Origin: a virus
Reading direction: 5' to 3' (one strand)
Virus record (IMG/VR): IMGVR_UViG_3300042298_000285
Coordinates: 1-22,324 of that record
Length of the DNA stretch: 22,324 nucleotides
Shown here: positions 3,104 to 22,324 of the stretch, piece after piece
Numbering within the stretch: the first letter of the stretch is position 1
Layout of the letters: the number at the start of each line of letters is the position of its first letter
Position numbers and translations under genes: made by a program
The notes under the pieces: generated by a model
Database searches by the model: none
The model's input: only the letters and a program-made list of their open reading frames with translations
Told to the model about the DNA's origin: nothing

Positions 3104-3281
3104 GATTGTTGACTACGCAATGCCCCTCATGAACATTGAGAGGCTAGCTAAGGAATGCCATGACTTGTGCCTCGTGGGCGACTACGACGGTGCCAACGAA
3201 TTGGCCTTGAAGATTGGGGTCGAGGCGCGTATCCTGGGCGCTTCGCTTGCAATAATGCAGGGTAAGGAGAACTCACAGTGA
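3078..3281 (+). CDS. small hypothetical protein overlapping the polymerase gene end
   Basis: This ORF of about 67 residues starts within the last 26 bases of the polymerase gene in another frame and ends with TGA at 3279-3281, overlapping the GTG start of the next nuclease gene. The protein (IERLAKECHDLCLVGDYDGANELALKIG...) reads as two or three helices, with two cysteines and no known motif. The start is uncertain. GTG 3066, ATG 3078 and ATG 3090 are all in frame; 3090 has the best upstream GGAAA and 3066 has none. The tight fit between two real genes and the plausible composition favour a genuine gene. No function can be assigned. Confidence 0.6.
   Translation: MEKAMVTAEIVDYAMPLMNIERLAKECHDLCLVGDYDGANELALKIGVEARILGASLAIMQGKENSQ
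3265..3269 (+). promoter_or_regulatory. Shine-Dalgarno supporting the GTG start at 3278
   Basis: AGGAG is 8 bases upstream of GTG 3278 and 14 bases upstream of the in-frame ATG 3284. The spacing favours GTG as the start of the Fe-S nuclease gene and places the binding site inside the preceding small gene, so translation is probably coupled. Confidence 0.6.
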
Positions 3282-3943: not shown

Positions 3944-3945
3944 GT

Positions 3946-4197
3946 ATGCCCTACACCAAGTCCCCCCGCCCGTACAAACACGAGTACCAAATGCAACTCA
4001 AACGAGGTGAGCATGAGGACCGCATGGAACGCCAACGCGCACGCAACAAGCTTGATGCTAAGGGCGTAGATCGTACGGGTAGAGATGTCAGCCACGTCAA
4101 AGCTCTTGCTAAGGGTGGCTCCAACAAAGACGGTTACAAACTAGAGTCACCATCGAAGAACCGCAGCCGCAACCTCCACCACAAAGGAGAGAAATGA
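3946..4197 (+). CDS. HNH-like small basic protein
   Basis: This 83-residue protein is very rich in Lys, Arg and His. Residues 47-76 (DVSHVKALAKGGSN...ESPSKNRSRN) follow the order of an HNH nuclease core: D-x-x-H with Asp47 and His50, then GGSN, then an Asn-Arg-Ser near residue 72. The zinc-binding cysteine pairs of many HNH enzymes are absent, as in some small phage versions. It may nick or cleave DNA, or it may be a DNA-binding relic. The start is ATG 3946 with GGAG overlapping the upstream stop. It sits between the Fe-S nuclease and the SNF2 helicase, which fits a DNA-processing role. Confidence 0.6.
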   Translation: MPYTKSPRPYKHEYQMQLKRGEHEDRMERQRARNKLDAKGVDRTGRDVSHVKALAKGGSNKDGYKLESPSKNRSRNLHHKGEK

Positions 4198-4198
4198 C

Positions 4199-5593
4199 GT
4201 GACTGAGCAATACTTAGAGGGCTACGAATGGCCCCGTCCATCAGGAATCGAACCCTTCGCACACCAGAAAGAAACCGCACAATTCCTAGCCACCCGCAGC
4301 AAAGCCTTCTGCTTCAACGAGCAGGGCACAGGCAAGACTGCGTCGGTGATATGGGCGACCGACTACCTCATGAACGTGGGGGCCATCAAGCGGGTTCTTA
4401 TTGTGTGCCCCCTGTCCATCATGCACTCGGCATGGCAACAAGACCTCTTCAAATTCGCCATTCATCGTACGGTAGATGTAGCTTACGGTTCAGCACTTAA
4501 GCGTAAAAAGATAGTCTCAGGCGTAGCCGAGTACGTTGTCATCAACTTTGATGGCGTCGAGATTGTCCGAGAGGAGATCGCCAGAGGTGGATTCGACCTC
4601 ATCGTGGTCGATGAGGCGTCGGCGTACAAGAACGCAGCCACCACACGGTGGAAAGTCATGCGGTATTTGATGCAGCGCATCAAAGGGTTGTGGATGCTGA
4701 CCGGCACACCTGCTGCCCAGTCGCCAGTTGATGCCTACGGGCTAGCTAAGCTTGTGAACCCTGCTGGTACACCCCCGTTCTTTGGGCAGTTCAGAGACAT
4801 GGTGATGTACCCGGTTACCCAGTACCGATGGGTGCCTAAGCCGAAATCCGATGAAATTGTCCACAACGTACTCCAACCTGCCATACGGTTTGAGAAGGCG
4901 CAGTGCCTGGACTTGCCCGAGGTCACGTACATAGACCGAGAGGCCCCGATGACTGTGCAGCAGCTTAAGTTCTACAAGGAACTCAAGAACGAGATGTTGG
5001 TCGAGGCGGCAGGGGAAGAGATCTCAGCGGTCAATGCAGCGGTGAAACTCAACAAACTTCTACAAATAGCTTGTGGTTCTGTATACACAGATACACGGGA
5101 GGTAGTGGACTTTGATGCCCGCAACAGGTTGAACGCTATCAAGGAGGTCATTGAGGAGGCCAGCCACAAGGTGCTGATCTTTGTGCCGTTTACGCACACC
5201 ATCCTCAAGGTCAAGGAGTACCTGACCAAAGCTCACATTGTGAGTGAGGTCATCGACGGCAGCGTCCCTGTTGTCAAGCGCAGCCAGATCGTCACCGACT
5301 TCCAGACCAAGGAGAACCCACGGGTCCTCATCATCCAGCCGCAAGCTGCGTCCCACGGGCTTACCCTAACTGCCGCCGACACCATCGTCTGGTACGCTCC
5401 CGTGACCAGTGTGGAGACCTACCTCCAAGCCAACGCCCGCATCAACCGCCCAGGCCAGCGCAACGCGATGACTGTGGTGCACATCCAGGGCAGTCCTGTG
5501 GAGCGCGGGCTGTACGCCATGCTGCGGGGCAACATCGCCAACCACGACAAGATCGTTGAACTTTATCGCCAAGAGATGAACGAAAACACTTGA
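4199..5593 (+). CDS. SNF2-type superfamily 2 DNA helicase/translocase
   Basis: This 464-residue protein contains a complete SF2 motor of the SNF2 class. Motifs in order are PFAHQ near 19-23, Walker A QGTGKT at 42-47, LIVCPLSIMHSAW (Ia region), VVDEAS with Asp138-Glu139 (motif II), LTGTPAAQ at 167-174 (motif III), then in lobe 2 ASHGLTLTAADTIVWY (motif V) and QANARINRPGQ (motif VI with arginine fingers). It is close to minimal length, with no accessory domains. SNF2 proteins translocate on double-stranded DNA. In phage replication modules they are thought to remodel recombination intermediates or displace proteins, which remains inferred. It starts at GTG 4199, one base after the preceding TGA, and its stop lies inside a promoter-like -35 box. 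Confidence 0.93.
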   Translation: MTEQYLEGYEWPRPSGIEPFAHQKETAQFLATRSKAFCFNEQGTGKTASVIWATDYLMNVGAIKRVLIVCPLSIMHSAWQQDLFKFAIHRTVDVAYGSALKRKKIVSGVAEYVVINFDGVEIVREEIARGGFDLIVVDEASAYKNAATTRWKVMRYLMQRIKGLWMLTGTPAAQSPVDAYGLAKLVNPAGTPPFFGQFRDMVMYPVTQYRWVPKPKSDEIVHNVLQPAIRFEKAQCLDLPEVTYIDREAPMTVQQLKFYKELKNEMLVEAAGEEISAVNAAVKLNKLLQIACGSVYTDTREVVDFDARNRLNAIKEVIEEASHKVLIFVPFTHTILKVKEYLTKAHIVSEVIDGSVPVVKRSQIVTDFQTKENPRVLIIQPQAASHGLTLTAADTIVWYAPVTSVETYLQANARINRPGQRNAMTVVHIQGSPVERGLYAMLRGNIANHDKIVELYRQEMNENT

Positions 5594-5617
5594 CAAAGTC
5601 AAGACACGCTGTACAGT
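5590..5617 (+). promoter_or_regulatory. sigma70-like promoter candidate
   Basis: A perfect -35 box TTGACA (5590-5595) and a -10-like TACAGT (5612-5617) are separated by 16 bases. The -35 overlaps the SNF2 stop codon, and the -10 lies in the 68-base gap, the only sizeable gap in the left operon. Transcription would begin near 5623-5625 and serve the ssDNA-binding protein, HTH and primase-helicase genes. The -10 matches only 4 of 6 consensus positions. Confidence 0.55.
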
Positions 5618-5623
5618 CGAAGA

Positions 5624-5639
5624 CGTGGGCCCACCCACG
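5624..5639 (+). promoter_or_regulatory. stem-loop at predicted 5' end of the downstream transcript
   Basis: CGTGGG (5624-5629) and CCCACG (5634-5639) form a perfect 6-base-pair stem with a CCCA loop. It has no U-tract, so it is not an intrinsic terminator. It falls exactly where RNA from the promoter at 5590-5617 would begin. A 5'-terminal hairpin can protect mRNA from decay, so this may stabilise the transcript. That role is inferred. Confidence 0.45.
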
Positions 5640-5661
5640 CAAAACAAGTAGGAGCTAACAA

Positions 5662-6087
5662 ATGCAGGAAGAAGACCAAGGGGTCGCAGCACCCCTTCCT
5701 CTAGCCGTCGATAAGGTGGCCGAGGCGTACATCTCGATCCGAGATGCCCGTGCTGAAGCGAAGCGCGTCTTTGAAGCCCAGGATGAAACCCTGGCTGAGC
5801 AGATGCGGGAGCTTGAAGCACACCTGCTTGACGTGTGCAAGCAGATCAACGCCGACAGTATCAGAACCAAAGCAGGCACAGTCATTCGTTCAGTCAAAAC
5901 ACGGTACTGGACAAACGACTGGGATTCAATGTACCGCCTCATCCATGAGAGGCAAGCATTCGGCCTGCTCGAGAAGCGACTTCATCAATCCAACATGAAG
6001 CAGTTTCTTGAAGAGAATCCAGAGGTCTTGCCTGAGGGTCTGAATCAGGACAAGGAATACACCGTGGTTGTTAGACGTGCAAAGTAA
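5662..6087 (+). CDS. conserved phage protein of unknown function, upstream of the ssDNA-binding protein
   Basis: This 141-residue protein starts at ATG 5662 with a strong AGGAG at 5650-5654. Residues about 15-65 are a charged helical, probably coiled-coil, segment (DKVAEAYISIRDARAEAKRV then LAEQMRELEAHLLDVC). A beta-rich part follows (IRTKAGTVIRSVKTRYWTNDWDSMY), then a helix and a final strand (EYTVVVRRAK). The pattern of a helical start followed by a TKAGT strand and a DWD motif recurs in a phage family encoded next to ssDNA-binding proteins. The layout loosely recalls Gam-type nuclease inhibitors, but I see no decisive motif. It is the first gene behind the promoter candidate, so it may be well expressed. 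Confidence 0.75.
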   Translation: MQEEDQGVAAPLPLAVDKVAEAYISIRDARAEAKRVFEAQDETLAEQMRELEAHLLDVCKQINADSIRTKAGTVIRSVKTRYWTNDWDSMYRLIHERQAFGLLEKRLHQSNMKQFLEENPEVLPEGLNQDKEYTVVVRRAK

Positions 6088-6092
6088 ATCAA

Positions 6093-7010
6093 ATGAGCAA
6101 CATTCAACTCTTTAATCAAGAAGTCCCCGATTTCCTCCAAAACGCTGGCTTGAGTGAACTGACCAAGTCCTTGGTCGGTCGCCCCCGTAACAAGCGTCTG
6201 GTGCCCAAGAACGGCATCTGGACGAAGATGGTTGGTGGTGAAGCGATGGGCAAGCTCAAGGGCGACATCGATGTCGTTATCGTCAACGCCGCGCCGCACG
6301 TTGGTCGGATCTTCTACGCTACTGCGTGGAACCCCGATGCCGAGCCGACCGCACCGGACTGCTTCTCGAATGATGGCCGCATCCCCGATGCCAAGTCTGC
6401 GAATGTGCAAGCCAGCCGCTGTGACGATTGCCCCCAGAACATCAAAGGTTCTGGGCAAGGCCAATCAAAAGCCTGCCGTTACAACCGTTTCATCGCCGTG
6501 CTGTTGAAGGACGACTTTGGTACTTCTCTGGAAGGAGAGGTGTACCAGATCAAGCTGGCATCCAAGTCCCTCTTTGGTGACAACGATGGCAATGCGTACA
6601 CGTTCGAGAACTACACCAAATACCTGGGCAACAACGGCAAGAACGTGGATCACGTTGTGACCCGCATTAGCTTCAACGAGAACAACGACAACCAGTCGGT
6701 TATGTTCGCTCCTGTTGGCTACATCAACCGCCAGCAGTATGACGTGGCTCAGCGCGTGGCTAACCTGCCCGCAACCAAGGCTCTGATCGCCATGACACCT
6801 TCCCAGGTCGATGGTGTTACCAAGCTGCCCCCTCCGATGTTCAAGCCTGCGATCACTACAGCCGCAGTGACTGATATTGAAGACATCGAGGATGAGCCGC
6901 CCAGCAAGCGCCCGAGCAAGAAGTCTGTAGACGCAGACGCAGAAACCCCTGCAGCCAAGAGCAAGAAGGCACTTGCCGACGTGGTCTCCGCCTGGAGTAA
7001 GGACGACTGA
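6093..7010 (+). CDS. probable single-stranded DNA-binding protein with zinc-type cysteine cluster
   Basis: This protein has 305 residues. The N-terminal two thirds are beta-rich with aromatic residues. Four cysteines (Cys90, then Cys110 and Cys113 in CDDCPQN, then Cys128 in KACRYNRF) suggest a structural zinc site. The last 60 residues are low-complexity Ala/Lys/Pro/Asp and end in WSKDD, the short acidic tip that many ssDNA-binding proteins use to contact partners. T4 gp32 also combines a zinc site with an acidic tail, but sequence similarity to gp32 is not obvious. Position between a promoter and the primase-helicase gene fits a replication SSB. No clear Shine-Dalgarno precedes ATG 6093. The assignment rests on architecture and context. 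Confidence 0.6.
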   Translation: MSNIQLFNQEVPDFLQNAGLSELTKSLVGRPRNKRLVPKNGIWTKMVGGEAMGKLKGDIDVVIVNAAPHVGRIFYATAWNPDAEPTAPDCFSNDGRIPDAKSANVQASRCDDCPQNIKGSGQGQSKACRYNRFIAVLLKDDFGTSLEGEVYQIKLASKSLFGDNDGNAYTFENYTKYLGNNGKNVDHVVTRISFNENNDNQSVMFAPVGYINRQQYDVAQRVANLPATKALIAMTPSQVDGVTKLPPPMFKPAITTAAVTDIEDIEDEPPSKRPSKKSVDADAETPAAKSKKALADVVSAWSKDD

Positions 7011-7012
7011 CC

Positions 7013-7246
7013 ATGACCTATGGGTACAGCCAGCGTATGGCGGAGCTTAATCGCTCCGCTGAGCTGGAGTCGATAGGTGTGGCGCTGGGTAGGGAATGCA
7101 TCAGGATCGGACTCTCCGTCCGTACTGTTGCAGAGGACTTAGGTGTCTCTCGCATGACGATCTACAACTGGTTCACTGGCGCAAGTAAGCCCAGTAAACG
7201 GATGGACTTGGTCGTCAAAGCTTACCTAACCGACCTACGCAAGTAA
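7013..7246 (+). CDS. small helix-turn-helix DNA-binding protein
   Basis: This 77-residue protein has a clear helix-turn-helix at residues about 36-63: SVRTVAEDLGVSRMTIYNWF followed by TGASKPSKRM, typical of Cro/CI or transposase-like XRE-type domains (helix, Gly turn, recognition helix with SRMTIYNWF). There is no ligand-binding or oligomerisation domain. It begins two bases after the ssDNA-binding protein gene and precedes the primase-helicase gene. It may regulate the phage operon or mark an origin. Neither can be decided from sequence. Confidence 0.8.
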   Translation: MTYGYSQRMAELNRSAELESIGVALGRECIRIGLSVRTVAEDLGVSRMTIYNWFTGASKPSKRMDLVVKAYLTDLRK

Positions 7247-7258
7247 CCCATGTGTACT

Positions 7259-7276
7259 ACGGAGCTTCGGCTCCGT
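7259..7276 (+). promoter_or_regulatory. extra-stable cUUCGg tetraloop hairpin before the primase-helicase gene
   Basis: ACGGAGC (7259-7265), TTCG (7266-7269) and GCTCCGT (7270-7276) form a perfect 7-base-pair stem with the C(UUCG)G tetraloop, one of the most stable RNA loops known. No U-tract follows, so termination is unlikely. It sits between the HTH stop (7246) and ATG 7300. It could act as an RNA-processing boundary, a decay barrier or a translational control element. Confidence 0.6.
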
Positions 7277-7299
7277 GGTGCCCTATTCACTCCAAAAAT

Positions 7300-10143
7300 A
7301 TGACGAACTTCGACTTGCTCGACACAGTGCTGCCCAAAGAGGGTCGGTACTGCATGTTTGGGAAAGGTCGGTACATAGTCCAGAAGTTCTTTGATACCCG
7401 GGAACAGTTAGACGCTGAGGTCAGCAAGCTTGTAGATAACAACTTCGATGCTTACTTTGGCTGCGCCAAGTTCGGTGACGCCAACAACCGTGAGCATGGA
7501 AACGCCGAGTACTTCCACGCACTGTGGATGGACATAGACTGCGGCGAAGCAAAGGCTAAGCCAAACGACAAGGGCAAGATCGAGGGGTACATCGATCAAG
7601 AGACCGGCCTGAAAGCCGTGATGGAGTTCTGCAAGTCCCAGAAGCTCCCTCGCCCGATCATTGTTGACTCAGGCAATGGCCTGCACTTCTATTGGATTCT
7701 CACTGAGGTGGTTCGTCGCCCACAGTGGGAGGCGCTGTCTAAGAGATTCCGTGCGCTGGCCATCGAGAAAGGGCTGATTGTAGATACTTCAGTATTTGAA
7801 GCATCCAGAGTCCTGCGCGTCCCCGGCACATTCAACTTCAAGAACTCTCCCCCCAGCCCTGTGGCGGTGATCAGTGGGGAGCATGACGTTACCGACTACG
7901 AAGTCTGGAAAGCACTCATCGGTGCCCCAGACGCAGAGATCCCACAAGACACCAGCCATTTGCCCAGAGGCATGAGCCCCCTTCAGGAGGCTCTGATGGA
8001 GAACCGGATCAAGCGGTTCAGCACCATCATGCTCAAGTCGGCGGGGGGTAGTGGCTGTCAGCAACTACTGTATTGCTATCAGAACCAGAAGGACATCAGC
8101 TACAACCTTTGGCGGTCGGCACTCTCTATTGCCACGCACTGCGTGGACAGGGAGAAAGCGATCCACAAGATCTCAAGCGACCACCCGCAGTACACAGAAG
8201 GTGAGACAGAGATTAAGGCTGCAGACATAGGTGGCCCACACCTGTGCACAACCTTTGAAACCCAGAACCCCGGGGGGTGTGACGGGTGCCCCAACAAGGG
8301 TAGGTTCAAGTCGCCCATCATGCTTGGTATGGACATCGCCAAGGCGGAGGAACCGGATGACGATGGTGACGGCAGTGATACCGCAGTAGCCACCCCCAAG
8401 CTCCCTGCTTTGCCGACGCCCTACTTTCGGGGCAAGCACGGCGGCATCTATCGACTACCGCCCACCACAGAAGACGATCCGGTACTTGTGTATGAGCATG
8501 AGCTTCACGTAGTCAAGCGCATGTCCGACCCGGTTCAGGGAGAGGTGGTTTTGTTCCGGCTGCACCTGCCAAAAGATGGGGTGCGTGAATTCACCCTCCC
8601 TATGACAACGGTGGTAGCTGAAAGAGAGTTGCGCCCTGCACTGGCTATGCACGGGTTGGTCAGCTTCAGTGATCAGTTCAAACTCATCTACACGTACATC
8701 ACTACGTGCGTCAAAAACATACAGGTAACCAACAAGGCAGAAATCATGAGAACTCAATTTGGCTGGGTAGACAACAACACCAAGATGATCATCGGGGATC
8801 GGGAGGTCACCGCACAGGGCAGCTTCTACAGCCCCCCGTCAAGTACGACCAAGGTCGAGGCGGAGATGATGCAACCAGAGGGTACGTTGGAGAAGTGGAA
8901 GGAAATCTTCAACATGTACGCTCAGCCTGGGCTAGAGGCGAACGCATTCGCTGCGTTGACGGGGTTCGGCTCCCCGCTGCTGAAGTTCACTGGGTTGAGT
9001 GGGGCGATCATCAACCTCATCTTCCCTGGCTCGGGCTCTGGTAAGTCCACCATCCTGTACATGTGCAACAGCATTTACGGGCACCCAAAGAACTTGGCGT
9101 CGATTTGGAAGGACACACTGAACGCCAAGATGCACCGGCTCGGGGTACTGAACAACCTGCCTAACACCATTGACGAAATCACCAACACCACTGCGGAAGA
9201 GTTCTCTGACCTTGCTTACAGCATTTCGCAGGGGCGTGGCAAGAACCGGATGAAGGCATCGTCCAACGAGATGCGGGTCAACCTGACAAGTTGGCAGGGG
9301 ATCACACTTGCTTCGTCAAATGCAAGCTTCTACGAGAAGCTCGGCGCAGCCAAAGACTCGCCCGACGGTGAGTCCATGCGTTTGATGGAGTACGCCATCA
9401 TGCCGAGCAACATCATCCCAGTGGAGTTGGGCAAGAAGATGTTTGACCACGAGCTGATGGAGAACTACGGCCACGCTGGGGACATCTATGCCGAGTACCT
9501 CGTTGGGCACCTCGAGGATGTAATCGACCTACTACGGCAGGTGCAAGCCAAGATCGACCGTGAGGTGCAGTTCACCAGCAGAGAACGGTTCTGGTCGGGC
9601 TTAGCAGCCTGCAACATCACGGGCGGCTTGCTTGCTAAAGACCTGGGCCTGCACAACTACGACATGCGGGCTGTCTACAGATGGATGGTCAACATGCTGC
9701 AGGGGATGCGTGAAGATATCAAACCCCCGTCTAGCAATGTCGTGACGATCATTGGCGAGTACGTCAACAACAACATGAGCAACGTCCTCGTGGTCAACGG
9801 AGATGCAGACGCTCGGACAAACTTGGTAGCGCTCCCCACAATGGAGCCCAGAGGTGAGCTGCTTATTCGCTTTGAGCCCGACACAAAGCGCCTGTTCTTT
9901 ACAGCCAAGGAGTTCCGGGGCTATTGCATCAAGCGGCAGATCAACTACAAGGGTGTGCTGGAGTCTCTTAAAGAGACAGGTGTATTCATCGGTCCAGGGA
10001 ACAAGCGGATGTCCAAGGGGATGAAGGTCTACTCACCGCCTGTGCGCATTCTGGAGTTCAACACAGACCATCCCGACTTCGTGAACGTCAATGACGTTCT
10101 GGGGGCTGACGATGATAATCGAAACGGTGCAGTACAGAATTAA
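7300..10143 (+). CDS. primase-polymerase (AEP) fused to DUF927-like helicase
   Basis: This 947-residue bifunctional replication enzyme has an N-terminal archaeo-eukaryotic primase domain with WMDID (Asp78 and Asp80), SGNGLHFYW (His129) and VDTSVFEASRVLRVPGTFNF (Asp162). These are the three hallmark motifs of PrimPol enzymes. A CTTF...NPGGCDGCP cluster (Cys316, Cys327 and Cys330) forms a probable zinc-binding linker. The C-terminal half is a DUF927-type ATPase: Walker A GSGSGKST (Lys582), Walker B TIDEIT (Asp625-Glu626) and a sensor-like ITLASSN. It should prime and unwind phage DNA, replacing a gp4/DnaB-type system. A longer GTG start at 7252 adds 16 residues, but that stretch is the hairpin region and reads unlike protein, so I prefer ATG 7300. 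Neither start has a clear Shine-Dalgarno. Confidence 0.92.
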   Translation: MTNFDLLDTVLPKEGRYCMFGKGRYIVQKFFDTREQLDAEVSKLVDNNFDAYFGCAKFGDANNREHGNAEYFHALWMDIDCGEAKAKPNDKGKIEGYIDQETGLKAVMEFCKSQKLPRPIIVDSGNGLHFYWILTEVVRRPQWEALSKRFRALAIEKGLIVDTSVFEASRVLRVPGTFNFKNSPPSPVAVISGEHDVTDYEVWKALIGAPDAEIPQDTSHLPRGMSPLQEALMENRIKRFSTIMLKSAGGSGCQQLLYCYQNQKDISYNLWRSALSIATHCVDREKAIHKISSDHPQYTEGETEIKAADIGGPHLCTTFETQNPGGCDGCPNKGRFKSPIMLGMDIAKAEEPDDDGDGSDTAVATPKLPALPTPYFRGKHGGIYRLPPTTEDDPVLVYEHELHVVKRMSDPVQGEVVLFRLHLPKDGVREFTLPMTTVVAERELRPALAMHGLVSFSDQFKLIYTYITTCVKNIQVTNKAEIMRTQFGWVDNNTKMIIGDREVTAQGSFYSPPSSTTKVEAEMMQPEGTLEKWKEIFNMYAQPGLEANAFAALTGFGSPLLKFTGLSGAIINLIFPGSGSGKSTILYMCNSIYGHPKNLASIWKDTLNAKMHRLGVLNNLPNTIDEITNTTAEEFSDLAYSISQGRGKNRMKASSNEMRVNLTSWQGITLASSNASFYEKLGAAKDSPDGESMRLMEYAIMPSNIIPVELGKKMFDHELMENYGHAGDIYAEYLVGHLEDVIDLLRQVQAKIDREVQFTSRERFWSGLAACNITGGLLAKDLGLHNYDMRAVYRWMVNMLQGMREDIKPPSSNVVTIIGEYVNNNMSNVLVVNGDADARTNLVALPTMEPRGELLIRFEPDTKRLFFTAKEFRGYCIKRQINYKGVLESLKETGVFIGPGNKRMSKGMKVYSPPVRILEFNTDHPDFVNVNDVLGADDDNRNGAVQN

Positions 10144-10410: not shown

Positions 10411-13400
10411 CTACTGTCGAGCGCGTTGCTCTTTCGCTTCCAGTGCCTGCCGGGATGGCAGAGCAGCTTTGCCGAAGTACTTGATGTCGGTCTCGGTCAA
10501 CGGCAGGCCACGGTAGGACTCACCCCGTGCTTTCGCTGCCGACTCAATCGAGCGAAGGATGTCGTCGGGCTCGATTGCCAACGTCTCATCAGGATGCCGC
10601 CGGTTGAACTCATCGCGCTTGGTCATGAACTCCTTGAACCGCTTGGTATCTTGTTTGAGATACGACTCTCTCAGGTTCTTCAGAATATCCTCACGCTCAA
10701 ACTTTATCTTCTGCATGACCGAGTAGAAGCGGTAGTTCAAGTTCTGAGCGTTGGAGATCTCATCAATCCGCAAGCCCATCGACTGGAACAGGAAGTCACC
10801 AAGGGTGTAGGCATCCTTGCTCAAAAGCTGCGTGCCCTTGTTGTCTTTGATGCCTTCCATCGCGTACTTCCACGCAACCAACGGACCTCGAGCGATTGCA
10901 GGGAGGAATTTCTCTGCAGCCTTCTGCGTGTCCCCATCCTTGAACGCCTTGTACGCATCCAGATACGTGAGAACCATGTTGATGGACGGGCCAGCCCGCT
11001 CAATCGCAGCCTCGATGAACCCTTCTCGAGGAGTGCGAGTCTCCTTGGTATCACGGAACCACAGGTCATTCAAAGACGTACGGCTTGCGATGTCCACACC
11101 CGTGAAGGCGTTGAGCGGGCCACGGTCAATGATGTCGCTGAGCTTCGTGCCGCCGATAGTGACATGTCCAAACTTCTCGGGCAGCAGCTCAGTGCGCCAC
11201 CAAAGTTCATAGTCCATCTGCTTGAGTGTCTTGGGCTTGTCCTCGTCACCGAGCGCGTTGGCCATCGCCCCCAGTAAACCCATGATGACACTGAACAGCG
11301 GCAGGCCAGAGGCCCCCGCCAGCAAGCCGGTCACACCCAAGATCCCAGAGAACTCCTTGAATGCCAGCCACCGAGTCTTACCCGGCAGTGGCTTGATGGT
11401 TTGAGCAAAGGTGCGTACAAGCCTCGTTGTGATAAATAGCGGATACATCGCAAACTGCAACACGAACCTTCCCGCTGCTTTCTGGAACAACGGTGGTCGG
11501 TTGTGCACAGCCATGTTGCCTGCGCTGTCGTGCGTGTCCTCGATAGCTTGGTCGATTGCAGCTTCATGAGCATCATTTGCTGCCTTGAGAACGTCTTGGT
11601 TCGCAGCCTTGGCGGCATCGACGGCCTTTTTAATAGCCAGTCGGTACGAGGTCAGGAACAGGATCTCGCGGGTGATGCGCTCGGCGTTGCTGAACAGCCC
11701 GCCTGTGATGGTGGTAGCTACGTGATACGCAGTGTCCTTGACCCCACCGACCTCAATAGACGGCACCCGAGCGCGTTCAAGAATTTCACCCGTCATGGTG
11801 GCATCGGTGCCACGGGCCATTGCCTTGAGTGCTTTGCGCTCATTGCCATTAAAGAAGACCGCTTTGGAGTGAAGCATCGAGATCGTTGGGAATACTCCTA
11901 ACGTGCGCTTGATATCCAATGCTGCAGTACGCTCAAGACCGAACTCGTCCCAGAACTTCATCAGCTTGGTCATCTCACGCGCAGTCTCAGCGTACCCATG
12001 CCGAGCGCCAAGAAGAGCAGCCCCATACGGCAAAGAGCTTAGCTGCACCAACGCAGAACCTGCTGCTGACAAGTAGTAGATGAACGAAGCACGGGTTGCC
12101 AGATCAACCGCCTTGGACCCAAGCTCAACCGACTTGGTAGACAACCCCGGCACCTTGTGCCCGTAGGGGTTCAACTGCACATCAACGCGCCGCGCCATCT
12201 CCTGCTGGTAGCGAACCAGAAGTGACTTCTCAGGGTTGCCCTCCAGCGATTTATCCGCAGCCACAAGTGAGTTGCGCAGCATGGTGCCGTACTTGATTCG
12301 GGCAAGTTGGCTGGACATGTGGATGGCAGTGGTGGAGAAGTTGCGGAGCAAGTCAGTGTTGAAGCCCGTGATCTCCTTACGCTTGATGAACGCTGTACGG
12401 AAGCTTTGGTCCGGCAGTGTGTTCAGGTAAAGCTGGTAGATGGAATCCTTGAGCTTGTCCCGACGGATACGGTCAACAGCAGGGTCACCCGTAGAGATTG
12501 GCGCAGCATCGATCAACTCAAAGATCTTGGTTAGCGCAGCCGTCATGTCTGACGTTTCTTTGCGGAACGACTCCAGCGTATCGCCTTGATCAAACTCATC
12601 AGGGTCTTTGAGGACTTCCTCGATAGGCCGATTGGTGCGCTGGGCGATGTCCTTAGCAAGCTCACGCTTCAGGGCTTCACGCTCGTAGGTAGAAGCAAAC
12701 GTGTAGAACTGCCGATCCTTGCTCTTCCTCTTACCCACACGCAGCCACAGATCCCCGCGATTACGCACCAACGCGAAATACGGAACGATGCGCTTGTCGG
12801 CTTCGTAGAGCTTCTTGATCTCAGCCAGCAGTTTGCTACGGGCACTTGCGGGCAGATCGGTGTTGTTGATCTGGTCATCCAGCAGGGTGCTGTAGTAGTC
12901 CACCATCGATTCGTAGTACTGCTTCAACTTCTTGTACAGCCGTTGCCCCTCTTTGCCGAGGCCGGTGTACAGCGAGTTCAGATCCTTGCTACGCTTATCA
13001 ACAGTTGGGTCGATCTCTGCGATGGTCGAGGCATAGACCACCTTCATCAGCTTGTCGCGCAGCCCAGGTTCTTTCTTGAACGTGGCGACCATGTCGTCGC
13101 TGATCTTCCCTGCAGCCTCCATCAGGTTGAACTCCATGCCACGCATGAGGCTCAACAGCTTGTTGGTGTTCTTCAGCTCAGGGATTGCTACGCTGCCTAC
13201 TTCTGCAATGGTGTCGGTGGTCATCAACGGCAAGAGCGTGTCAAGCCTTGACGCATCCAACGAATACAGAATGGAGCTGAGGACCGGTTTGATCTCGGAC
13301 AAATCACGCAGGGCATAGAGCCGACTCAGTTGTTCGGCACCCTTTGCGGACGCTCTTACTTTGGCAAGTGCTGCGTCAACGTCGGCGTCTATTTGCTTCT

Positions 13401-16400
13401 GAGTGCGGGTGTCCGCAGGCGTCAGAGTTGGGCCTGCAGCTCCTCCACTGACTCCACCTTGCTGAGCAGTTCCGCCAGCGGGCGGTACAGCTCCACTCCC
13501 ACCTTGTCCTGCTCTTGCTGATAGAGCCCCAGACTCACCATCACCCGGCTCCTCATTCTCTCTAGCTGCTGCTGAGGACTTTCCTTCGGATTTGCCGTAG
13601 TCTTCAAGAGATTTTGCAGTGTTTTTCGTTGTTGAGCGTCCATACGCCTCTCTCATTGCGGTAAAGGTGGACTCGTGCCGAGTCAGGATGTCCAGCAGAG
13701 CGTCACGATAGTAATCCATCAGTCCTTGGTCTGCCAAGTACTGATCTACCTTCATCATGTTGCTGTTGTGTGCCACCCCGTGATCCATAGACCCCGTGTG
13801 GGCGATCTCGTGGACCATCGTGCTCAGCAGGTTCTCACGCACACCAAACAGCGTCTTTGCCCCCCAGTCATAGAAGGGGTTTAGCAGCACTGCCTTGTAC
13901 GGGACCTTGATGTGAACGCCGCCGTAGCCCTTGTCTATGGAGATACCCGCGAAGAACAGATTCTTCGGGTCAAGCTTGTCGTAGCCATACAGTCCACTGT
14001 TTGCAGCAGACTCCTTCATCTCCACCATCAAGGTGCCGAGTTCAGCAAAGAACTGCTTCGGGTCTCCGTAGGCTTCGCCAATCTCTAGGAAGTCTACGTT
14101 GGTGTTGTTGTGGAAGATGGGCAGGCGTGGGTCCTGCTGCATCTGCAGCATGAACTGTTCACGGTCAGGCGCAGCCTTATCCGCCTTGAAGGTGGCTTCC
14201 TTTTGGTTGTCCTTACCCTTAAGTGGCTCAACGAGTTGTTTACCCTGCTTGTCTGTGACTCCCTTGTCGGAGACAAAAATCTCTGTTGGTAGGGGCGGCA
14301 GTTCCTTAGGTGCCACGGGTGCAGCAGCGTTTTTGTCGAACGCCTTCTTGAGCTTCTTGCTGGCGTCAGCAATGTCAGCACCCACGTCAATACGGGGCAT
14401 CGACACAATGCCCTTGAACGACTCCTGCAAACCTTCAGCCTCAACACCCCTGGCCACTTTCGCTAGGTATGACTGCAGTGCTTTGATATCTTCGTTGATA
14501 CGCTCTTTGAATCGTTCACGGCTGTTTTCAAACGGGTAGTCGGGGTGTTGGGCTACAACATTTGGTTTGATGTTGATGATGATGTCATGTGGTATGACCT
14601 CATTCATGTTTAGGTTGAATTGCTTATTGAACTGGTAAACGCCAGAAGACAGTACTTTATGGGCAGGGTATTGTTTGTGTTCAACACCAAAGTAGATATC
14701 TGCATCACCCCATGAGAAATGCGCACTGGTCAGCTTTGGGATGACTTTTTCATTGAAGTTGACACCAACATCTAAGACCTTGACTATGGGGTCGCCATAG
14801 CCGGGGTTGAACTCTACTGTTACTTGCGTCGGGCCAAGCAAGGGCTGCTGCAGTACATCGACACTGTCTGCCCCCCAAGGGAAGTAGATGTTCTTCTGCT
14901 GCCCCGTTTTGGGGTCAGTGTAGTTTTCAGGGATCTTTACCGTGACCGTAGTGCCATGTTCGGACTTCGGGGCGGCTTCCTTTTTTATCTGGAAAACTTC
15001 ACCAGCGATTTCTTCTGCAGTGGCATCCACGGTTGTACGCATGCCGTCACGCACGGTATCCAGCTTCAGCCAATCAGAACCGAGCATGAAGCCCATCTTG
15101 GCAAGACCGAGGCCACCGCTGCGCTCACTTGGGTCAAGATCGGTTTTGCTTGTGCCACCAACAGTAAAGAAGGCTGACTTGATGATGTCAGGGGTCATCC
15201 CCCTGGCGTTGTCTGAAACAGTAATGGTGCGGTCATCTGCATTGAGCGTGATCTTGATGTCACCAGTCTTGATAAGCCCAATCTTCACTGCGCCCTTGAC
15301 TGCATCGAATGCGTTCTGCAGAAGCTCCTTGACTGCAACGTCGGCCACGTTGGCGGCATACATGCTTGCGCCGAGCACCTTGATCAGGTTGCCCATATCG
15401 GCTTGCAGCTTGACGTCCTCAGAACCAAACTGCTGCTTGGAAGCCGCAGAAGTAGCCGTCAGATTGGGCCGAGAGATGATCTCTACGTTCTTCTTGTTGA
15501 CGCGGTGGTAAGCCTTGGGGCTGACAGCATTGTTCGGCTGTACTTTGACGTAGTCACCATCCACACCGAGCACCACACCCATCGTGTTACCCACACGGAC
15601 GGTGTCTCCCTCACGAGGGGCAGACTTTTTCAGTTCCTCTGCAGTCGGTGCAGTCTCACCCGTAGCCTCAACCCGGGCTTCGCCACGGGTCATCTTCTGA
15701 CGCTGTTCCTTGACCTCAGGCTTTTTCCCACCCGCACCTGCTCCACGCAGATACTCAGATACTTTCTGCTTGGTCTCTGGGTTCAGGTTGGGGACCGTCA
15801 CGAACTTCTTAAGCTGCTCATTGACTTCTGGATCAGTCAACTCTTTGTCAGCAAGCCGAGTACGTATCGGTGCCTTGGGGGCTATGCCCAAGCTGTCAAA
15901 GAACCCAGGTACAGCAAGTGTGTAGGTGAGTGCCGGAGCTGCAGGGGTTGGTGCCGGAGCGGGTTCGGGAGCCGGAGCGGGTTCGGGAGCCGGAGCGGGT
16001 TCGGGAGCCGGAGCGGGTTCAGGGGTTGGGGCGGGCTCAGGAGCTGGAGCGGGTTCAGGGGCCGGAGCGGGGGCCGTAGGGGTTGGGGCGGGCGCAGTTG
16101 GAGTTACTGCAGTGGGTTGCTCTGTTGCTCCTGCAGGAGGCCGTCCAACATCCGGCTCAGTAGGAACCACTCCACCTGTTGGAGGGACTCCAGCTCCTTG
16201 GGCGGGGGCTCCTGCACTGGGCTTGCCAGCCACTGAAACGCCTTCTCCAACTGCTGGTTCGACAGGTTTTGCAGCACTTGGTGTTCCTTCGGCAGGGGTT
16301 TCTGGTTGTGCACGCTTCGTAAGCTCCGCACGGATTGCTTCAATAAGAGGAGCTTTGCGCTGATCCTCAGGCTTGGCAAGCTGAGTCTTCAGAGTCTCTT

Positions 16401-18321
16401 GGAGCAACGTAGTCGGCCATGCCCCAACAGCAGGGGTCTCTGGCGCGGGGGCTCCTGCAGGGGCAGGGGGCTTAGCCTGCTCATCGATTACAGCAGTGGC
16501 CCTCTTACGCGCATCAGCCTCTTCCCAACCAGCCTGGATGTACTGGTTAGTCAGCGTATTGATCTTGCCTTCGCGCTCAGCAGCTTCCAACTCTTTGGTA
16601 CGGGCGTCTGTTGCGGGAGGAGCCGGGGGTGTAGGCGGAGCTACCGGAGGAGCGGGCGGAGCCGGGGGTGGCGGAGGTGGGGCTTGGGTCTCCTGTACCT
16701 CGTCCAGTGCTTGCAGCGCGGCGTCTTCAGGCTTCATACCTGAAGCCATCAACTCCTTTGTGCGCTGCACAATCTTGTTCTGGTCCAGCGGAGCTTCTTG
16801 CGCAAACTGCGCACGTTGTACTTCCGGCTTAGGGATGACCTTGTTGGGGTCGTACATCTCAGGTGACAGGGCACGCCGTGCGTATTCTTCAACAGGCTCT
16901 TTGAGGAAGTCCCGCTCAGCAATGTCTTTACGTAGACCTCGGGCAAGTGCTGCTTCGGGGGCGTACTTCTCAAAAGCCCGTTCAGCGCCACGCTTGCTTT
17001 CAATTGCACCGACAGTTGCGCCAGCCATCGTGCCCGACTGGATCACGGTCTGCCTGAGGGTCTCCCCTGCAGCTTCCAACAGATCAGCCCAACCTGCGTT
17101 GGGGCGCAGCCCAAACTCCGGAGCTTTGTCTATCAGGAACTGAGTAAATGTAGTTGCCTGCTCTGCAGGTATTTCCTTTGCCATTGCGGTGGCAAAGTAG
17201 CGTGCAATGTCCGCATTCGGGTTACCAGCCAGTTGCTTCTTCAGCCCAGCCAGAGCACCGGTCATACCGAAACGCTCAAAGACAAGTTCTGCAGCCGTCA
17301 ACAAAGACGCACGAGTAGCCGCAGCCCCCGGCTCCAACCCTTGACTACGGCCTTGACCGTACTCATTACTGAATACCTCTATACCCACACTAGCCAAGAC
17401 AGGCACGGCTGTACCTGTGAGCACACTGAGCGCAAGCATCGGCCCTTGTGTGGTGAGCGTAGCGAGTGCTTGCTGCGCAGACTTGGCGAATACACCTTCC
17501 CCCTCAGGGATAGCTGCAGTACGTTCAGCACCAATACGCTGCGCTCCGCGCAGCCGAGCCTTCATCTCGTCATCACCGACGATGTCGGCGTAGATGTTCA
17601 TCAGCCCCATGCCAGCCTGTTCAGCACGGGCACCGGCAGTAGCACCGACGCGATCAAGGAAGCCCGCGCCTTCCATTTCCTTCTTGGTCTTGGCAGCTTC
17701 AGCCCCAGCCTGCTCACCCACCACATCAGCAGTCATCTGCTGGAGGTCTTGCCCTGGCAACCCAGTCATAGCCTGGGCGATTGCCTTGCTCCTGGCAGTC
17801 TCTGGCGCAGCACCTTGCCGCATGAACCGCTCCATCTGCGGCTCAAGTCTGGTCTCCAATATACCCTTCGTAGCAGGCAGTGCACCCTCAAGTGCAGCGT
17901 ATTGGTTGGCGATCTGCCGAACCGCTCGGCCAGTGACATCGGACCTTGTACCAAGCTTCATCAGCGCAGCGTTGCGCTGAGCTTCGGGCATCGCGTCCAG
18001 CTTAGCCTTGATCCCAGCCACAAACTCAGGCTGCAGCATGGGGTCGGTGTACCCCGGAGTGCCAAACTCAGGAGTCGCGGCTGGGCCTGGACGCTCCAAC
18101 AAAGGCTGCTTATACAGCGCAGATCTACCAAAAGCTTCAGCCCCAGTCATGGGGCCTACTTTTCCAGGGTACGTCTCCTTGCCACCGAACAAAGAGGCAA
18201 GACCCCCAGCGGGGGGTTGGACCCCCAGCATCCTATTTACAGTTGCTTGTATTACAGCCGGGTTTGTGCCGTCGGGGAACTCAAGGATTCTTCCATCTGC
18301 CAGTTCAGCTTCAATCGGCAT
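10411..18321 (-). CDS. giant polyvalent virion protein: GHKL ATPase, HExxH metallopeptidase, LPD38-like C-terminus
   Basis: This 2636-residue protein starts at ATG 18321. The leader MPIEAELADGRILEFPDGT is typical of large phage virion proteins. Residues about 287-315 are hydrophobic, about 545-571 poly-Pro, and about 741-797 Pro-Ala-Glu repeats. Residues about 897-945 (GDTVRVGNTMGVVLGVDGDY) look SH3/KOW-like. A GHKL ATPase follows: N box with Glu999 and Asn1003 (KELLQNAFDA), G1 box DNARGM from Asp1037, and glycine-rich lid SGGLGLAKMG at 1068-1077. A zinc peptidase motif HEIAH lies at 1504-1508, with further histidines at 1514 and 1518. The rest is helical, with hydrophobic stretches near 2079-2106 and 2325-2357, and resembles large polyvalent protein domain 38. 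Such proteins are thought to be packaged and injected with phage DNA. The host target is unknown. It is the last gene of the virion operon. Confidence 0.88.
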   Translation of the reverse strand: MPIEAELADGRILEFPDGTNPAVIQATVNRMLGVQPPAGGLASLFGGKETYPGKVGPMTGAEAFGRSALYKQPLLERPGPAATPEFGTPGYTDPMLQPEFVAGIKAKLDAMPEAQRNAALMKLGTRSDVTGRAVRQIANQYAALEGALPATKGILETRLEPQMERFMRQGAAPETARSKAIAQAMTGLPGQDLQQMTADVVGEQAGAEAAKTKKEMEGAGFLDRVGATAGARAEQAGMGLMNIYADIVGDDEMKARLRGAQRIGAERTAAIPEGEGVFAKSAQQALATLTTQGPMLALSVLTGTAVPVLASVGIEVFSNEYGQGRSQGLEPGAAATRASLLTAAELVFERFGMTGALAGLKKQLAGNPNADIARYFATAMAKEIPAEQATTFTQFLIDKAPEFGLRPNAGWADLLEAAGETLRQTVIQSGTMAGATVGAIESKRGAERAFEKYAPEAALARGLRKDIAERDFLKEPVEEYARRALSPEMYDPNKVIPKPEVQRAQFAQEAPLDQNKIVQRTKELMASGMKPEDAALQALDEVQETQAPPPPPPAPPAPPVAPPTPPAPPATDARTKELEAAEREGKINTLTNQYIQAGWEEADARKRATAVIDEQAKPPAPAGAPAPETPAVGAWPTTLLQETLKTQLAKPEDQRKAPLIEAIRAELTKRAQPETPAEGTPSAAKPVEPAVGEGVSVAGKPSAGAPAQGAGVPPTGGVVPTEPDVGRPPAGATEQPTAVTPTAPAPTPTAPAPAPEPAPAPEPAPTPEPAPAPEPAPAPEPAPAPEPAPAPTPAAPALTYTLAVPGFFDSLGIAPKAPIRTRLADKELTDPEVNEQLKKFVTVPNLNPETKQKVSEYLRGAGAGGKKPEVKEQRQKMTRGEARVEATGETAPTAEELKKSAPREGDTVRVGNTMGVVLGVDGDYVKVQPNNAVSPKAYHRVNKKNVEIISRPNLTATSAASKQQFGSEDVKLQADMGNLIKVLGASMYAANVADVAVKELLQNAFDAVKGAVKIGLIKTGDIKITLNADDRTITVSDNARGMTPDIIKSAFFTVGGTSKTDLDPSERSGGLGLAKMGFMLGSDWLKLDTVRDGMRTTVDATAEEIAGEVFQIKKEAAPKSEHGTTVTVKIPENYTDPKTGQQKNIYFPWGADSVDVLQQPLLGPTQVTVEFNPGYGDPIVKVLDVGVNFNEKVIPKLTSAHFSWGDADIYFGVEHKQYPAHKVLSSGVYQFNKQFNLNMNEVIPHDIIINIKPNVVAQHPDYPFENSRERFKERINEDIKALQSYLAKVARGVEAEGLQESFKGIVSMPRIDVGADIADASKKLKKAFDKNAAAPVAPKELPPLPTEIFVSDKGVTDKQGKQLVEPLKGKDNQKEATFKADKAAPDREQFMLQMQQDPRLPIFHNNTNVDFLEIGEAYGDPKQFFAELGTLMVEMKESAANSGLYGYDKLDPKNLFFAGISIDKGYGGVHIKVPYKAVLLNPFYDWGAKTLFGVRENLLSTMVHEIAHTGSMDHGVAHNSNMMKVDQYLADQGLMDYYRDALLDILTRHESTFTAMREAYGRSTTKNTAKSLEDYGKSEGKSSAAARENEEPGDGESGALSARAGQGGSGAVPPAGGTAQQGGVSGGAAGPTLTPADTRTQKQIDADVDAALAKVRASAKGAEQLSRLYALRDLSEIKPVLSSILYSLDASRLDTLLPLMTTDTIAEVGSVAIPELKNTNKLLSLMRGMEFNLMEAAGKISDDMVATFKKEPGLRDKLMKVVYASTIAEIDPTVDKRSKDLNSLYTGLGKEGQRLYKKLKQYYESMVDYYSTLLDDQINNTDLPASARSKLLAEIKKLYEADKRIVPYFALVRNRGDLWLRVGKRKSKDRQFYTFASTYEREALKRELAKDIAQRTNRPIEEVLKDPDEFDQGDTLESFRKETSDMTAALTKIFELIDAAPISTGDPAVDRIRRDKLKDSIYQLYLNTLPDQSFRTAFIKRKEITGFNTDLLRNFSTTAIHMSSQLARIKYGTMLRNSLVAADKSLEGNPEKSLLVRYQQEMARRVDVQLNPYGHKVPGLSTKSVELGSKAVDLATRASFIYYLSAAGSALVQLSSLPYGAALLGARHGYAETAREMTKLMKFWDEFGLERTAALDIKRTLGVFPTISMLHSKAVFFNGNERKALKAMARGTDATMTGEILERARVPSIEVGGVKDTAYHVATTITGGLFSNAERITREILFLTSYRLAIKKAVDAAKAANQDVLKAANDAHEAAIDQAIEDTHDSAGNMAVHNRPPLFQKAAGRFVLQFAMYPLFITTRLVRTFAQTIKPLPGKTRWLAFKEFSGILGVTGLLAGASGLPLFSVIMGLLGAMANALGDEDKPKTLKQMDYELWWRTELLPEKFGHVTIGGTKLSDIIDRGPLNAFTGVDIASRTSLNDLWFRDTKETRTPREGFIEAAIERAGPSINMVLTYLDAYKAFKDGDTQKAAEKFLPAIARGPLVAWKYAMEGIKDNKGTQLLSKDAYTLGDFLFQSMGLRIDEISNAQNLNYRFYSVMQKIKFEREDILKNLRESYLKQDTKRFKEFMTKRDEFNRRHPDETLAIEPDDILRSIESAAKARGESYRGLPLTETDIKYFGKAALPSRQALEAKEQRARQ
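15953..16024 (-). repeat. 18-base tandem repeat encoding Pro-Ala-Glu units
   Basis: Four consecutive 18-base units (GCCGGAGCGGGTTCGGGA on the + strand; three perfect, the last with two changes) begin at 15953, 15971, 15989 and 16007, with degenerate units extending to about 16080. On the coding strand they give a six-residue Ala-Pro-Ala-Pro-Glu-Pro repeat. It forms an extended, probably stiff spacer between the N-terminal part of the giant protein and its ATPase region. The 18-base period preserves frame, so copy number can vary without breaking the gene. Confidence 0.9.
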
Positions 18322-20052: not shown

Positions 20053-20910
20053 TTAACCCAGCTTCAAACCCTTGACCGCTTCCATCAGGGACCCAAGCCC
20101 ACCGATAGTAGATGTCAACTGCCCAATCCCACTCATCTGCGCAGGAGTGTTGGTCACCGTGGAAATCGGCAAACCCTGCAACATGGACTGCAGGAACTGC
20201 ACTTGTTTTTGTGGGTAGTCACGTTGGGCCAGGAATTCGTTGTAGTCGGCAGTGATGCCTTCTTGTTCAATGCCACGTTGTGCAGTGCCCGCCCCAGCCA
20301 GCATGTCAGCAAGGGTCTTGGCTTGGCCCTGTTCAGTATTGAACTGCCCCATCGCCCGATCATAGGCGTTAGCGTACCCAGTACCGATGGCTTTGTTTTG
20401 CTCTTGCAGCAGGTTGCGCTGAGTCTCAGCGTCCATAATGGCTTGGCGGGAGCCACCATATGCCCCTGCTTGAGACAGCTTAGCGGCATTACCCATCTGC
20501 GTCATCCGGCTTTGCCGACTAAGCTCTTCCAACTGAGGCGTCAATACCGCACTCAGGTACGGGTTCATGTAGTTAGCGGCAATGCCACCCGGCCCAGTCT
20601 GCTGGCCCGTGACCCCCGTAGAAGTCATTGTCGGCAGTTGGTACGCATCCGTGGAGGAGAAAGACTTCCCAAGCTGGCCGGGGAAAGTCAAGTTACCCAA
20701 CCCCTGGAACACCTTGGACTGCAGGCCAGATTCGCCCGCAGTCATCGGCCCTTGGTATGTCTGGTATGGCTGCTGGGACAAAGCCTGAGCCTGCCCCAGC
20801 ATGTTGGTTACATATGGGCCAGCCCACTCAGAAAGAGTTGAAGAGGATGACCCCCCCGCTGCAGGGAGTGCGGAGGCTGCAGTGCCTGCAGTGTTGGGCA
20901 TAGTAGCCAT
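20053..20910 (-). CDS. putative virion structural protein (GSRQAIMDAE family)
   Basis: This 285-residue protein starts at ATG 20910 with AGGA six bases upstream. The N-terminal half is Ser/Gly/Gln/Thr-rich (GPYVTNMLGQAQALSQQPYQ, a motif common near the start of this phage family). The central part (residues about 115-180) is the most conserved-looking: MNPYLSAVLTPQLEELSRQS then GAYGGSRQAIMDAETQRN, followed by a helical AYDRAMGQFN stretch. I recognise this combination from structural genes of aquatic phages, where it is usually annotated only as hypothetical or virion protein. A role as tail or internal core component is plausible. No enzyme motif or membrane segment is seen. Confidence 0.7.
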   Translation of the reverse strand: MATMPNTAGTAASALPAAGGSSSSTLSEWAGPYVTNMLGQAQALSQQPYQTYQGPMTAGESGLQSKVFQGLGNLTFPGQLGKSFSSTDAYQLPTMTSTGVTGQQTGPGGIAANYMNPYLSAVLTPQLEELSRQSRMTQMGNAAKLSQAGAYGGSRQAIMDAETQRNLLQEQNKAIGTGYANAYDRAMGQFNTEQGQAKTLADMLAGAGTAQRGIEQEGITADYNEFLAQRDYPQKQVQFLQSMLQGLPISTVTNTPAQMSGIGQLTSTIGGLGSLMEAVKGLKLG

Positions 20911-21742: not shown

Positions 21743-22324
21743 TCAACCTCTTCCAATGATGTTCAGCAACTCGTCGTAGGACGTGGGCTCGTCGGACTGA
21801 GCCAGGATCTGCTGTAGGTAGTCTTCTGCAGGATTCTCCTGCTTTTCACGTTCTTGAGCAATCTGTTGTTCCTCGATCTGCTCCCCCACGGCACCGGCTT
21901 TAGTGACGCTGAGTTCCTTGTACTTCTCGTCGGACACCTTGCCCTTCCCCAGCTTCTGCTTCTTTGAACCGAACTCCTTGCCGTAATAAAACACATTGGC
22001 GAGTTCCGGCCTGCCAATGGCAGCAGCCATAGCCTGGGCTTGGGGCAAAGAAATACGTGGGCGTGAAGTTGGAGTGGGTGTAGGAGTGGGTGTAGGGGTC
22101 GGAGTGGGTGTAGGAGTAGGGGTCGGAGTGGGTGTAGGAGTAGGAGTCGGAGTGGGTGTAGGAGTAGGAGTCGGAGTGGGTGTAGGAGTCGGAGTGGGTG
22201 TAGGAGTGGGAGTCGGAGTGGGTGTAGGAGTGGGAGTCGGAGTGGGAGTCGGAGTAGGGGTTGGAACAACGGGGGTGGGAGTCGGAGTAGGGGTTGGAAC
22301 AACGGGGGTGGGAGTCGGAGTGGG
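21743..22324 (-). CDS. virion-type protein with long Pro-Thr tract, 5' end outside window
   Basis: The frame is open from the right edge down to TGA at 21743-21745, giving 193 visible residues with the N-terminus missing. The first 86 or so are an almost pure Pro-Thr dipeptide repeat with two Pro-Val-Val-Pro interruptions. A folded-looking part follows: [20 protein letters not shown], then [20 protein letters not shown], then a charged helix ([20 protein letters not shown]) and the C-terminal [11 protein letters not shown]. Choosing the internal TTG at 22048 would lose the repeat and has no ribosome binding site, so I treat the gene as partial. The Pro-Thr tract resembles a rigid, extracellular-type linker. 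Context suggests a virion component. I do not recognise a family. Confidence 0.75.
21747..21751 (-). promoter_or_regulatory. Shine-Dalgarno favouring ATG 21741
   Basis: AGAGG on the - strand lies 5 bases before ATG 21741 and is too close to serve the in-frame TTG 21756. It also overlaps the end of the upstream gene (TGA at 21743-21745), so reinitiation or coupling is likely. Confidence 0.55.
22067..22324 (-). repeat. hexanucleotide-based tandem repeat encoding (Pro-Thr)n
   Basis: About 258 bases consist of a 6-base unit (GGAGTN-like on the + strand) with higher-order patterns: a 24-base unit around GTCGGAGTGGGTGTAGGAGT recurs several times, and a 33-base unit containing GGTTGGAACAACGGGGGTGG appears twice near the right end (TTGG at 22261 and 22294). 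It continues to the window edge and so is longer than seen here. All visible units keep the reading frame of the Pro-Thr protein. Confidence 0.92.

Follow-up and report, generated by a model that had tools for sequence, protein, structure and literature searches.

A predicted Hsp90-type GHKL ATPase linked to a zincin metalloprotease domain in giant polyvalent proteins of uncultured phages

Results and discussion

The stretch of DNA analysed here (the window) is an uncultured-virus record of 22,324 bases, and encodes a giant polyvalent protein in which a complete-looking GHKL ATPase domain is followed by a zincin metalloprotease domain with an HExxH motif and a further ligand (Table 1). Both are predicted enzymes, and both assignments are well supported by sequence and by structural models. 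In the viral contigs examined the two domains are inseparable, and residues 901-1590 form an island of conservation (about 60-70% identity) within giants which are otherwise ~16% identical. The module may be an ATP-controlled metalloprotease delivered by phage, an interpretation whose chances we consider to be about even.

Table 1. Features of the giant protein gene and its upstream neighbour in the window
Feature	Position	Strand	Remarks
Giant polyvalent protein ORF, 2636 aa, ATG start	10411..18321	-	
SH3-like small beta barrel, residues 901-950, N-terminal to the ATPase, accessory	15472..15621	-	
Predicted GHKL (Hsp90-type) ATPase domain, residues 966-1135	14917..15426	-	
N-box ELLQNAFD (Glu999, Asn1003, Asp1006)	15304..15327	-	
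G1 box DNARGM, Asp1037	15196..15213	-	
GGTSK (Lys1059; 15145-15159) and ATP lid SGGLGLAKMGF (1068-1078; 15088-15120)	15088..15159	-	
Gly1123-Thr1124, last ATP-site motif	14950..14955	-	Gly in 49/49, Thr in 48/49 relatives
Predicted middle/transducer domain, residues 1136-1328	14338..14916	-	Fold comparison
DYPFENSRERF with invariant Arg1268, proposed gamma-phosphate arginine	14509..14541	-	49/49 rows
Predicted zincin metalloprotease domain, residues 1391-1590	13552..14151	-	
HEIAHTGSMDH: predicted ligands His1504, His1508 and probably His1514; predicted catalytic Glu1505	13780..13812	-	
LPD39-like stretch	12853..13239	-	Pfam 23.6 bits, under gathering score 27
PLxRFG / DarB-like C-terminal domain	10516..12783	-	NCBIfam, PHROGs
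Ejection-protein-like gene, upstream of the giant gene	20053..20910	-	phrog_4287, E 2.5e-5

The giant protein and its genomic context

The C-terminal part of the giant protein is matched by the NCBIfam PLxRFG model (residues 1847-2602, 285 bits, cutoff 100) and by phrog_10089, a family of DarB-like antirestriction proteins (PHROGs, E 7.4e-46), while proline-rich linkers precede the ATPase-zincin module on its N-terminal side. Pfam searches with 16 giants found HATPase_c in all 16, LPD38 and LPD39 in six each, ART-PolyVal in two, and RadC, H-NS, GNAT and SAP in one each, with the PLxRFG domain present in 8/16; by these domain assignments the giants are polyvalent proteins (PMC5512222), combining unrelated catalytic and LPD-type domains. 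An ejection-protein family was found in 11 of the 21 records searched (none was recognisable in the other 10). In 10/11 the ejection and giant genes share a strand, with the former 1.4-1.9 kb upstream, and in the remaining record it is far off; in the window, 1,732 bases separate the two genes. The contig of an 88%-identical relative (L258) also encodes portal and terminase. A GroES-like co-chaperonin (phrog_3188, E 1.1e-5) is found near the portal gene on that contig (L258:582-1019, minus strand).

Among isolate phages, 31 records match the C-terminal domain, and many of these are annotated as DarB-like or PLxRFG. The DarB-like giant of phage JC1 is reported to have been detected in purified virions by mass spectrometry (PMC9144972). 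The JC1 giant presumably shares the C-terminal domain of the window protein, as judged from phrog_10089 and the DarB-like name, and the gene context suggests that the window protein is probably packaged in the virus particle and ejected with the genome. The polyvalent and DarB-like giants (Bcep22, JC1, Parlo, LASTA) resemble the window protein in their C-terminal domain, giant size, LPD and ART cargo and place in the virion-protein region, but the DarB-like giants carry a methylase and an SNF2 helicase as cargo.

On the opposite strand, positions 1241-10143 (+) of the window contain replication genes, for a PolA-type polymerase, an SNF2-like helicase and a primase-helicase. The polymerase is nearest to those of Rhizobium and Pseudomonas KPP25-type phages (about 34-37%), and the giant protein had no significant match in the stretches compared of Rhizobium phage RHph_TM3_14A and Pseudomonas KPP25. 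A long (PT)n/(GV)n-coding repeat occupies positions 21996-22324 at the contig end, and may be why the record ends at 22324.

A complete-looking GHKL ATPase domain

Pfam models HATPase_c (36.1 bits, gathering score 26.4) and HATPase_c_3 (30.2 bits, gathering score 25) matched residues 994-1132, and the NCBIfam HSP90-family model matched residues 970-1130 below its cutoff (48 vs 455 bits), with the NCBIfam HtpG cutoff far from reached (20.9 vs 371 bits). The first-pass annotation had placed an N-box (Glu999, Asn1003), a G1 box (Asp1037 in DNARGM) and a glycine-rich lid in this region, with 34 and 31 residues between them, and both the residues and the spacings agree with the sequence. The N-box, G1, lid and GT motifs lie in this order within a Bergerat fold in the AlphaFold model, which is borne out by Foldseek and VIA-align matches; absence of this fold had been named as what would refute the assignment. 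Conservation was scored in an alignment of 51 diverse modules (A6: 48 from the 80 relatives described below, plus L046, L048 and the window), using 49 rows and excluding L136 and L138, in both of which the N-box is intact. Residues E999, N1003, D1006, D1037, G1041, M1042, K1059, G1069, G1072, K1075 and G1123 are invariant in 49/49, while the third position of the DxGxG motif is Ala in the window (DNARG) and many distant relatives have DNGxG. As in other GHKL enzymes, Glu999 is presumably the general base and Asn1003 the Mg residue, and Asp1037 presumably contacts adenine.

AlphaFold models of the module, made with 33 and 51 sequences, had pLDDT values of 77.9 and 80.9, and Foldseek returned 616 and 610 PDB matches at E <= 0.001 for the two models, all of which, among the matches listed, are Hsp90-family proteins, GyrB or ParE. 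Full-length Hsp90s ranked best (E about 1e-14 to 1e-11), followed closely by GyrB. VIA-align matches, spanning about 285-290 residues (about 27-347 of the model), support a GHKL domain followed by a transducer, with Z-scores for GyrB (20.5), HSP90B (20.0) and topo VI-B (19.4) that are ties, and hence the fold comparison picks no GHKL subfamily. By sequence, the predicted ATPase domain is closest to Hsp90/HtpG: profile comparison with hhalign ranked HtpG (2.9e-13) before rIIA (8.9e-10), MutL (1.3e-8) and GyrB (1e-6), although the unequal profile depths (24, 3, 20 and 16 sequences, respectively) make this E-value ranking a rough guide only. HtpG in the PDB was also matched by the 33-sequence profile (E 1.1e-10), whose top PDB matches were HtpG, an Hsp90 and TRAP1.

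The matches to Hsp90, GyrB and topo VI-B fit an Hsp90/topoisomerase-type arrangement rather than that of a sensor kinase, which the first-pass annotation had also disfavoured. We reject the sensor kinase as no histidine-kinase phosphoacceptor (HisKA/DHp) domain was found among the Pfam matches up to E 1. A PADLOC search gave no match to a known anti-phage defence family. An SH3/KOW-like patch had also been noted upstream of the ATPase, and is indeed modelled as a small beta barrel (block pLDDT about 74-88 in the AlphaFold model), but the pattern is present in only 39/80 relatives and absent from 41/80; we therefore place the barrel outside the module core, and reject it as a core DNA-binding SH3/KOW domain.

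The transducer domain and Arg1268

A beta-rich region following the ATPase, previously proposed to run to about residue 1290 and to be a transducer, does adopt a GHKL transducer fold in the model, but extends slightly further (~1136-1328). The VIA-align fold match to HSP90B and GyrB covers the N-terminal and middle domains. Searched alone, the transducer had nothing but one chance-level match in the PDB by sequence profile (E <= 10) and matched no relevant Pfam family, and hence a sequence-detectable Hsp90 middle domain is unsupported. There is no variation in Q1230, F1231, Y1262 and P1263 in the 49 rows, and the YPFxxxR motif containing the invariant Arg1268 is itself nearly invariant. This motif fell on DLPLNVSRE of HtpG in two separate profile comparisons, at a non-significant E-value of 0.39, and the same register was obtained in a low-stringency full-length alignment with HtpG. 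We take the Arg of the HtpG motif to be the gamma-phosphate contact in Hsp90; in GyrB and MutL this contact is made by a lysine, and the candidate catalytic place in the transducer is held by an invariant Arg, not Lys, in the 49 rows. No Hsp90 Pfam family was matched at E <= 1, and the zincin stands where the Hsp90 C-terminal dimerisation domain would be.

The similarity to Hsp90/HtpG thus comprises the N-domain sequence, the fold of the N-terminal and middle domains and a candidate Arg motif in corresponding order, whereas the window protein differs in having neither a middle-domain sequence match nor the C-terminal domain, and in having its ATPase fused to a protease within a giant phage protein. 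The second closest by profile, rIIA, is likewise a phage GHKL ATPase, and an SRE motif is present in rIIA of T4 (at 277) and of a Streptomyces phage (at 266), but not in Erythrobacter rIIA. It differs in being a separate protein with an N-terminal ATPase, whereas the window-type ATPase is internal to giant ORFs at the loci examined, and HExxH is absent from the three rIIA proteins examined. GHKL ATPases as such are thus known from phages, rIIA being described as a counter-defence protein (Iyer 2021, PMC7824862); the unusual point here is the fusion with a zincin within a polyvalent protein of virion type.

The zincin domain

The HEIAH motif of the predicted zincin is located at residues 1504-1508 (13798-13812), ~500 residues C-terminal to the N-box. 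N1481, H1504, E1505 and H1508 are invariant in 49/49 and position 1514 is His in 46/49; by analogy with Wss1, His1514 is likely to be the third zinc ligand. The most distant modules (L046 and L048) have a long insertion after HEVAH and not the His/Phe pattern, which may mean a different third zinc ligand. Many relatives (including L005, L018, L025-L030, L034, L035, L037 and L039) have, about 290-510 residues C-terminal to the first HExxH, another copy of this motif that often reads HEIVH, and the window protein has one only.

The zincin of the window itself matched no Pfam family above cutoff, with just an insignificant match to Matrixin. Counting matches up to E 1, the 36 zincin members included 21 matching WLM (best 3.8e-6), 21 matching YgjP-like, 11 matching SprT-like and two matching MPTase-PolyVal (PF18818, best E 0.06), and the best PDB match of the zincin profile was Wss1 (E 0.0045). 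No zincin is among the VIA-align matches listed for the module, which is uninformative as the list is taken up by the ATPase. The HExxHxxxxxH layout is shared with the WLM, Wss1 and YgjP-like zincins, but the similarity to these is weak and member-dependent, and the window's domain falls below cutoff.

Linkage and conservation of the two domains

Relatives were collected from viral contigs in three rounds, which gave four loci with the query alone, 41 loci with an alignment query, all with HExxH and ATPase in one long ORF, and 107 relatives with an ATPase plus transducer query. The best 80 of these 107 were kept, and in each of these 80 BLAST detects a zincin within the ORF of the ATPase, down to about 30% ATPase identity, with the HExxH located 463-632 residues downstream of the start of the ATPase match. 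The reverse, zincin-first scans found the ATPase in 36/36 and 28/28 loci; as these used queries derived from linked proteins, the rounds overlap and near-identical contigs are included, the linkage counts are not independent, and unlinked copies may exist elsewhere.

When 16 giants were aligned over their full length and 13 relatives compared with the window (excluding L045 and L046), mean identity was 67% for the ATPase N-domain, 57% for the transducer, 40% for the linker and 72% for the zincin, compared with averages of 16% for residues 1-900 and 18% for the PLxRFG region. The conservation of the zincin is not a selection artefact, since loci were chosen through short ATPase words. Pairwise distances of N-domain and zincin were correlated (r 0.88, with 0/2000 permutations as high), as would be expected from joint inheritance of the two domains, although shared ancestry could yield the same and there was no unlinked control.

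The whole module was matched at 25% identity by A0A516L4L2, a predicted viral protein, and hence module sequences exist in UniProt. Searching 50,697 isolate phage records with five module queries recovered the whole module in none of them; the queries gave either partial matches only (16-28% of the query), mainly rIIA-like, or nothing. The bacterial genome scan yielded a single locus (L050), a zincin fragment with 66% identity at a contig end of an Alphaproteobacteria MAG with no ATPase upstream of it on the contig, which is probably chimeric or a phage end; in 8/397 other bacterial genomes the zincin profile matched weakly and over short ranges.

Possible functions of the module

An ATP-driven clamp had been the suggestion for the ATPase domain taken by itself. 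The presence of the zincin downstream in all relatives examined points to an ATPase-controlled protease, rather than a DNA or protein clamp, as the likely function, and functional coupling best explains the strict linkage with both active sites intact while other cargo changes. In GHKL enzymes, the dimer closes on ATP binding, and this would in turn place or free an enzyme lying downstream. By analogy with these machines, ATP would be bound by the Hsp90-type ATPase and transducer and would close the dimer, with Glu999 and Arg1268 acting in its hydrolysis, and closure would position or unlock the zincin so that a protein is cut; we infer catalytic activity, dimerisation and coupling of ATP to proteolysis for the module, which would be one of several cargo domains of the giant protein. 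As the giant protein probably enters the virion and leaves it together with the genome, cutting would be expected chiefly in the host cell, which is rich in ATP; the infected cell making the protein contains ATP as well, and thus ATP alone cannot confine the protease to the next host. A host protein is favoured as substrate over the giant protein itself, because the module keeps an identity of about 60-70% and the remainder of the giant changes. The more specific proposal that a clamp in the virion senses the ATP-rich live cytoplasm and turns a Wss1-like zincin on a conserved host or defence protein is tentative, and we consider it rather unlikely.

Self-processing, in which the ATPase-controlled zincin cuts the giant protein in cis and frees its cargo before packaging or after entry, is doubtful but has some precedent. 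Autoproteolysis by zincins of polyvalent proteins was proposed by Iyer 2017 from cleavage of P1 DdrB, and the same article describes N4 vRNAP as packaged uncleaved (PMC5512222), which argues against it. The proline-rich linkers before the module would suit such processing, but with flanks ~16% identical and the protease ~72% identical no conserved cleavage site is apparent.

It is improbable that the ATPase is an Hsp90-like refolding clamp, aiding the unfolding of the giant for tail passage and its refolding with the zincin acting independently. The nearest sequence relatives are Hsp90/HtpG, and a protein of 2600-4000 aa would have to unfold for ejection, but every locus examined has the ATPase linked to the zincin, and the isolate giants sharing the C-terminal domain (31 records) seem to manage without the module. 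Improbable too is a DNA clamp with a Wss1-like protease, stripping or degrading host defence proteins bound to incoming phage DNA: GHKL transducers of topoisomerases and MORC bind DNA, close relatives have the SH3-like barrel, and WLM is matched by 21/36 zincins with Wss1 as top PDB match (E 0.0045), but 41/80 relatives are missing the barrel pattern, no DNA-binding domain was found in the module, and as many members (21/36) match YgjP-like, for which we know of no DNA-clamp or defence-stripping role.

Returning to the ATP-controlled protease, its closest parallels in architecture are the VcSduA (GHKL-Shedu) defence protein, for which it has been proposed that the GHKL domain controls a nuclease effector (PMC12137116), and the MORC/MutL restriction systems. 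In all of these a GHKL ATPase is proposed to control a C-terminal effector, but there the effector is a nuclease in bacterial defence, whereas here it is a predicted zincin in a phage protein. In the open-access literature searched, no description of a GHKL-zincin fusion was found, and the main text of Iyer 2017 (PMC5512222) does not mention Hsp90, GHKL, histidine kinase or gyrase, with MORC and MutL appearing in a reference title only.

Conclusions

While polyvalent phage proteins and their zincins were known, the linked Hsp90-type ATPase is a candidate for control of the protease by ATP. If the ATP-gated interpretation is true, this would to our knowledge be the first Hsp90-type ATPase directly driving proteolysis, and would extend GHKL-controlled effectors beyond nucleases, and Hsp90-like proteins beyond chaperones, to proteases. 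The module would then be a new class of virion-delivered effector, and if its target is a host defence protein, it would represent a widespread counter-defence device, seen so far only in uncultured phages.
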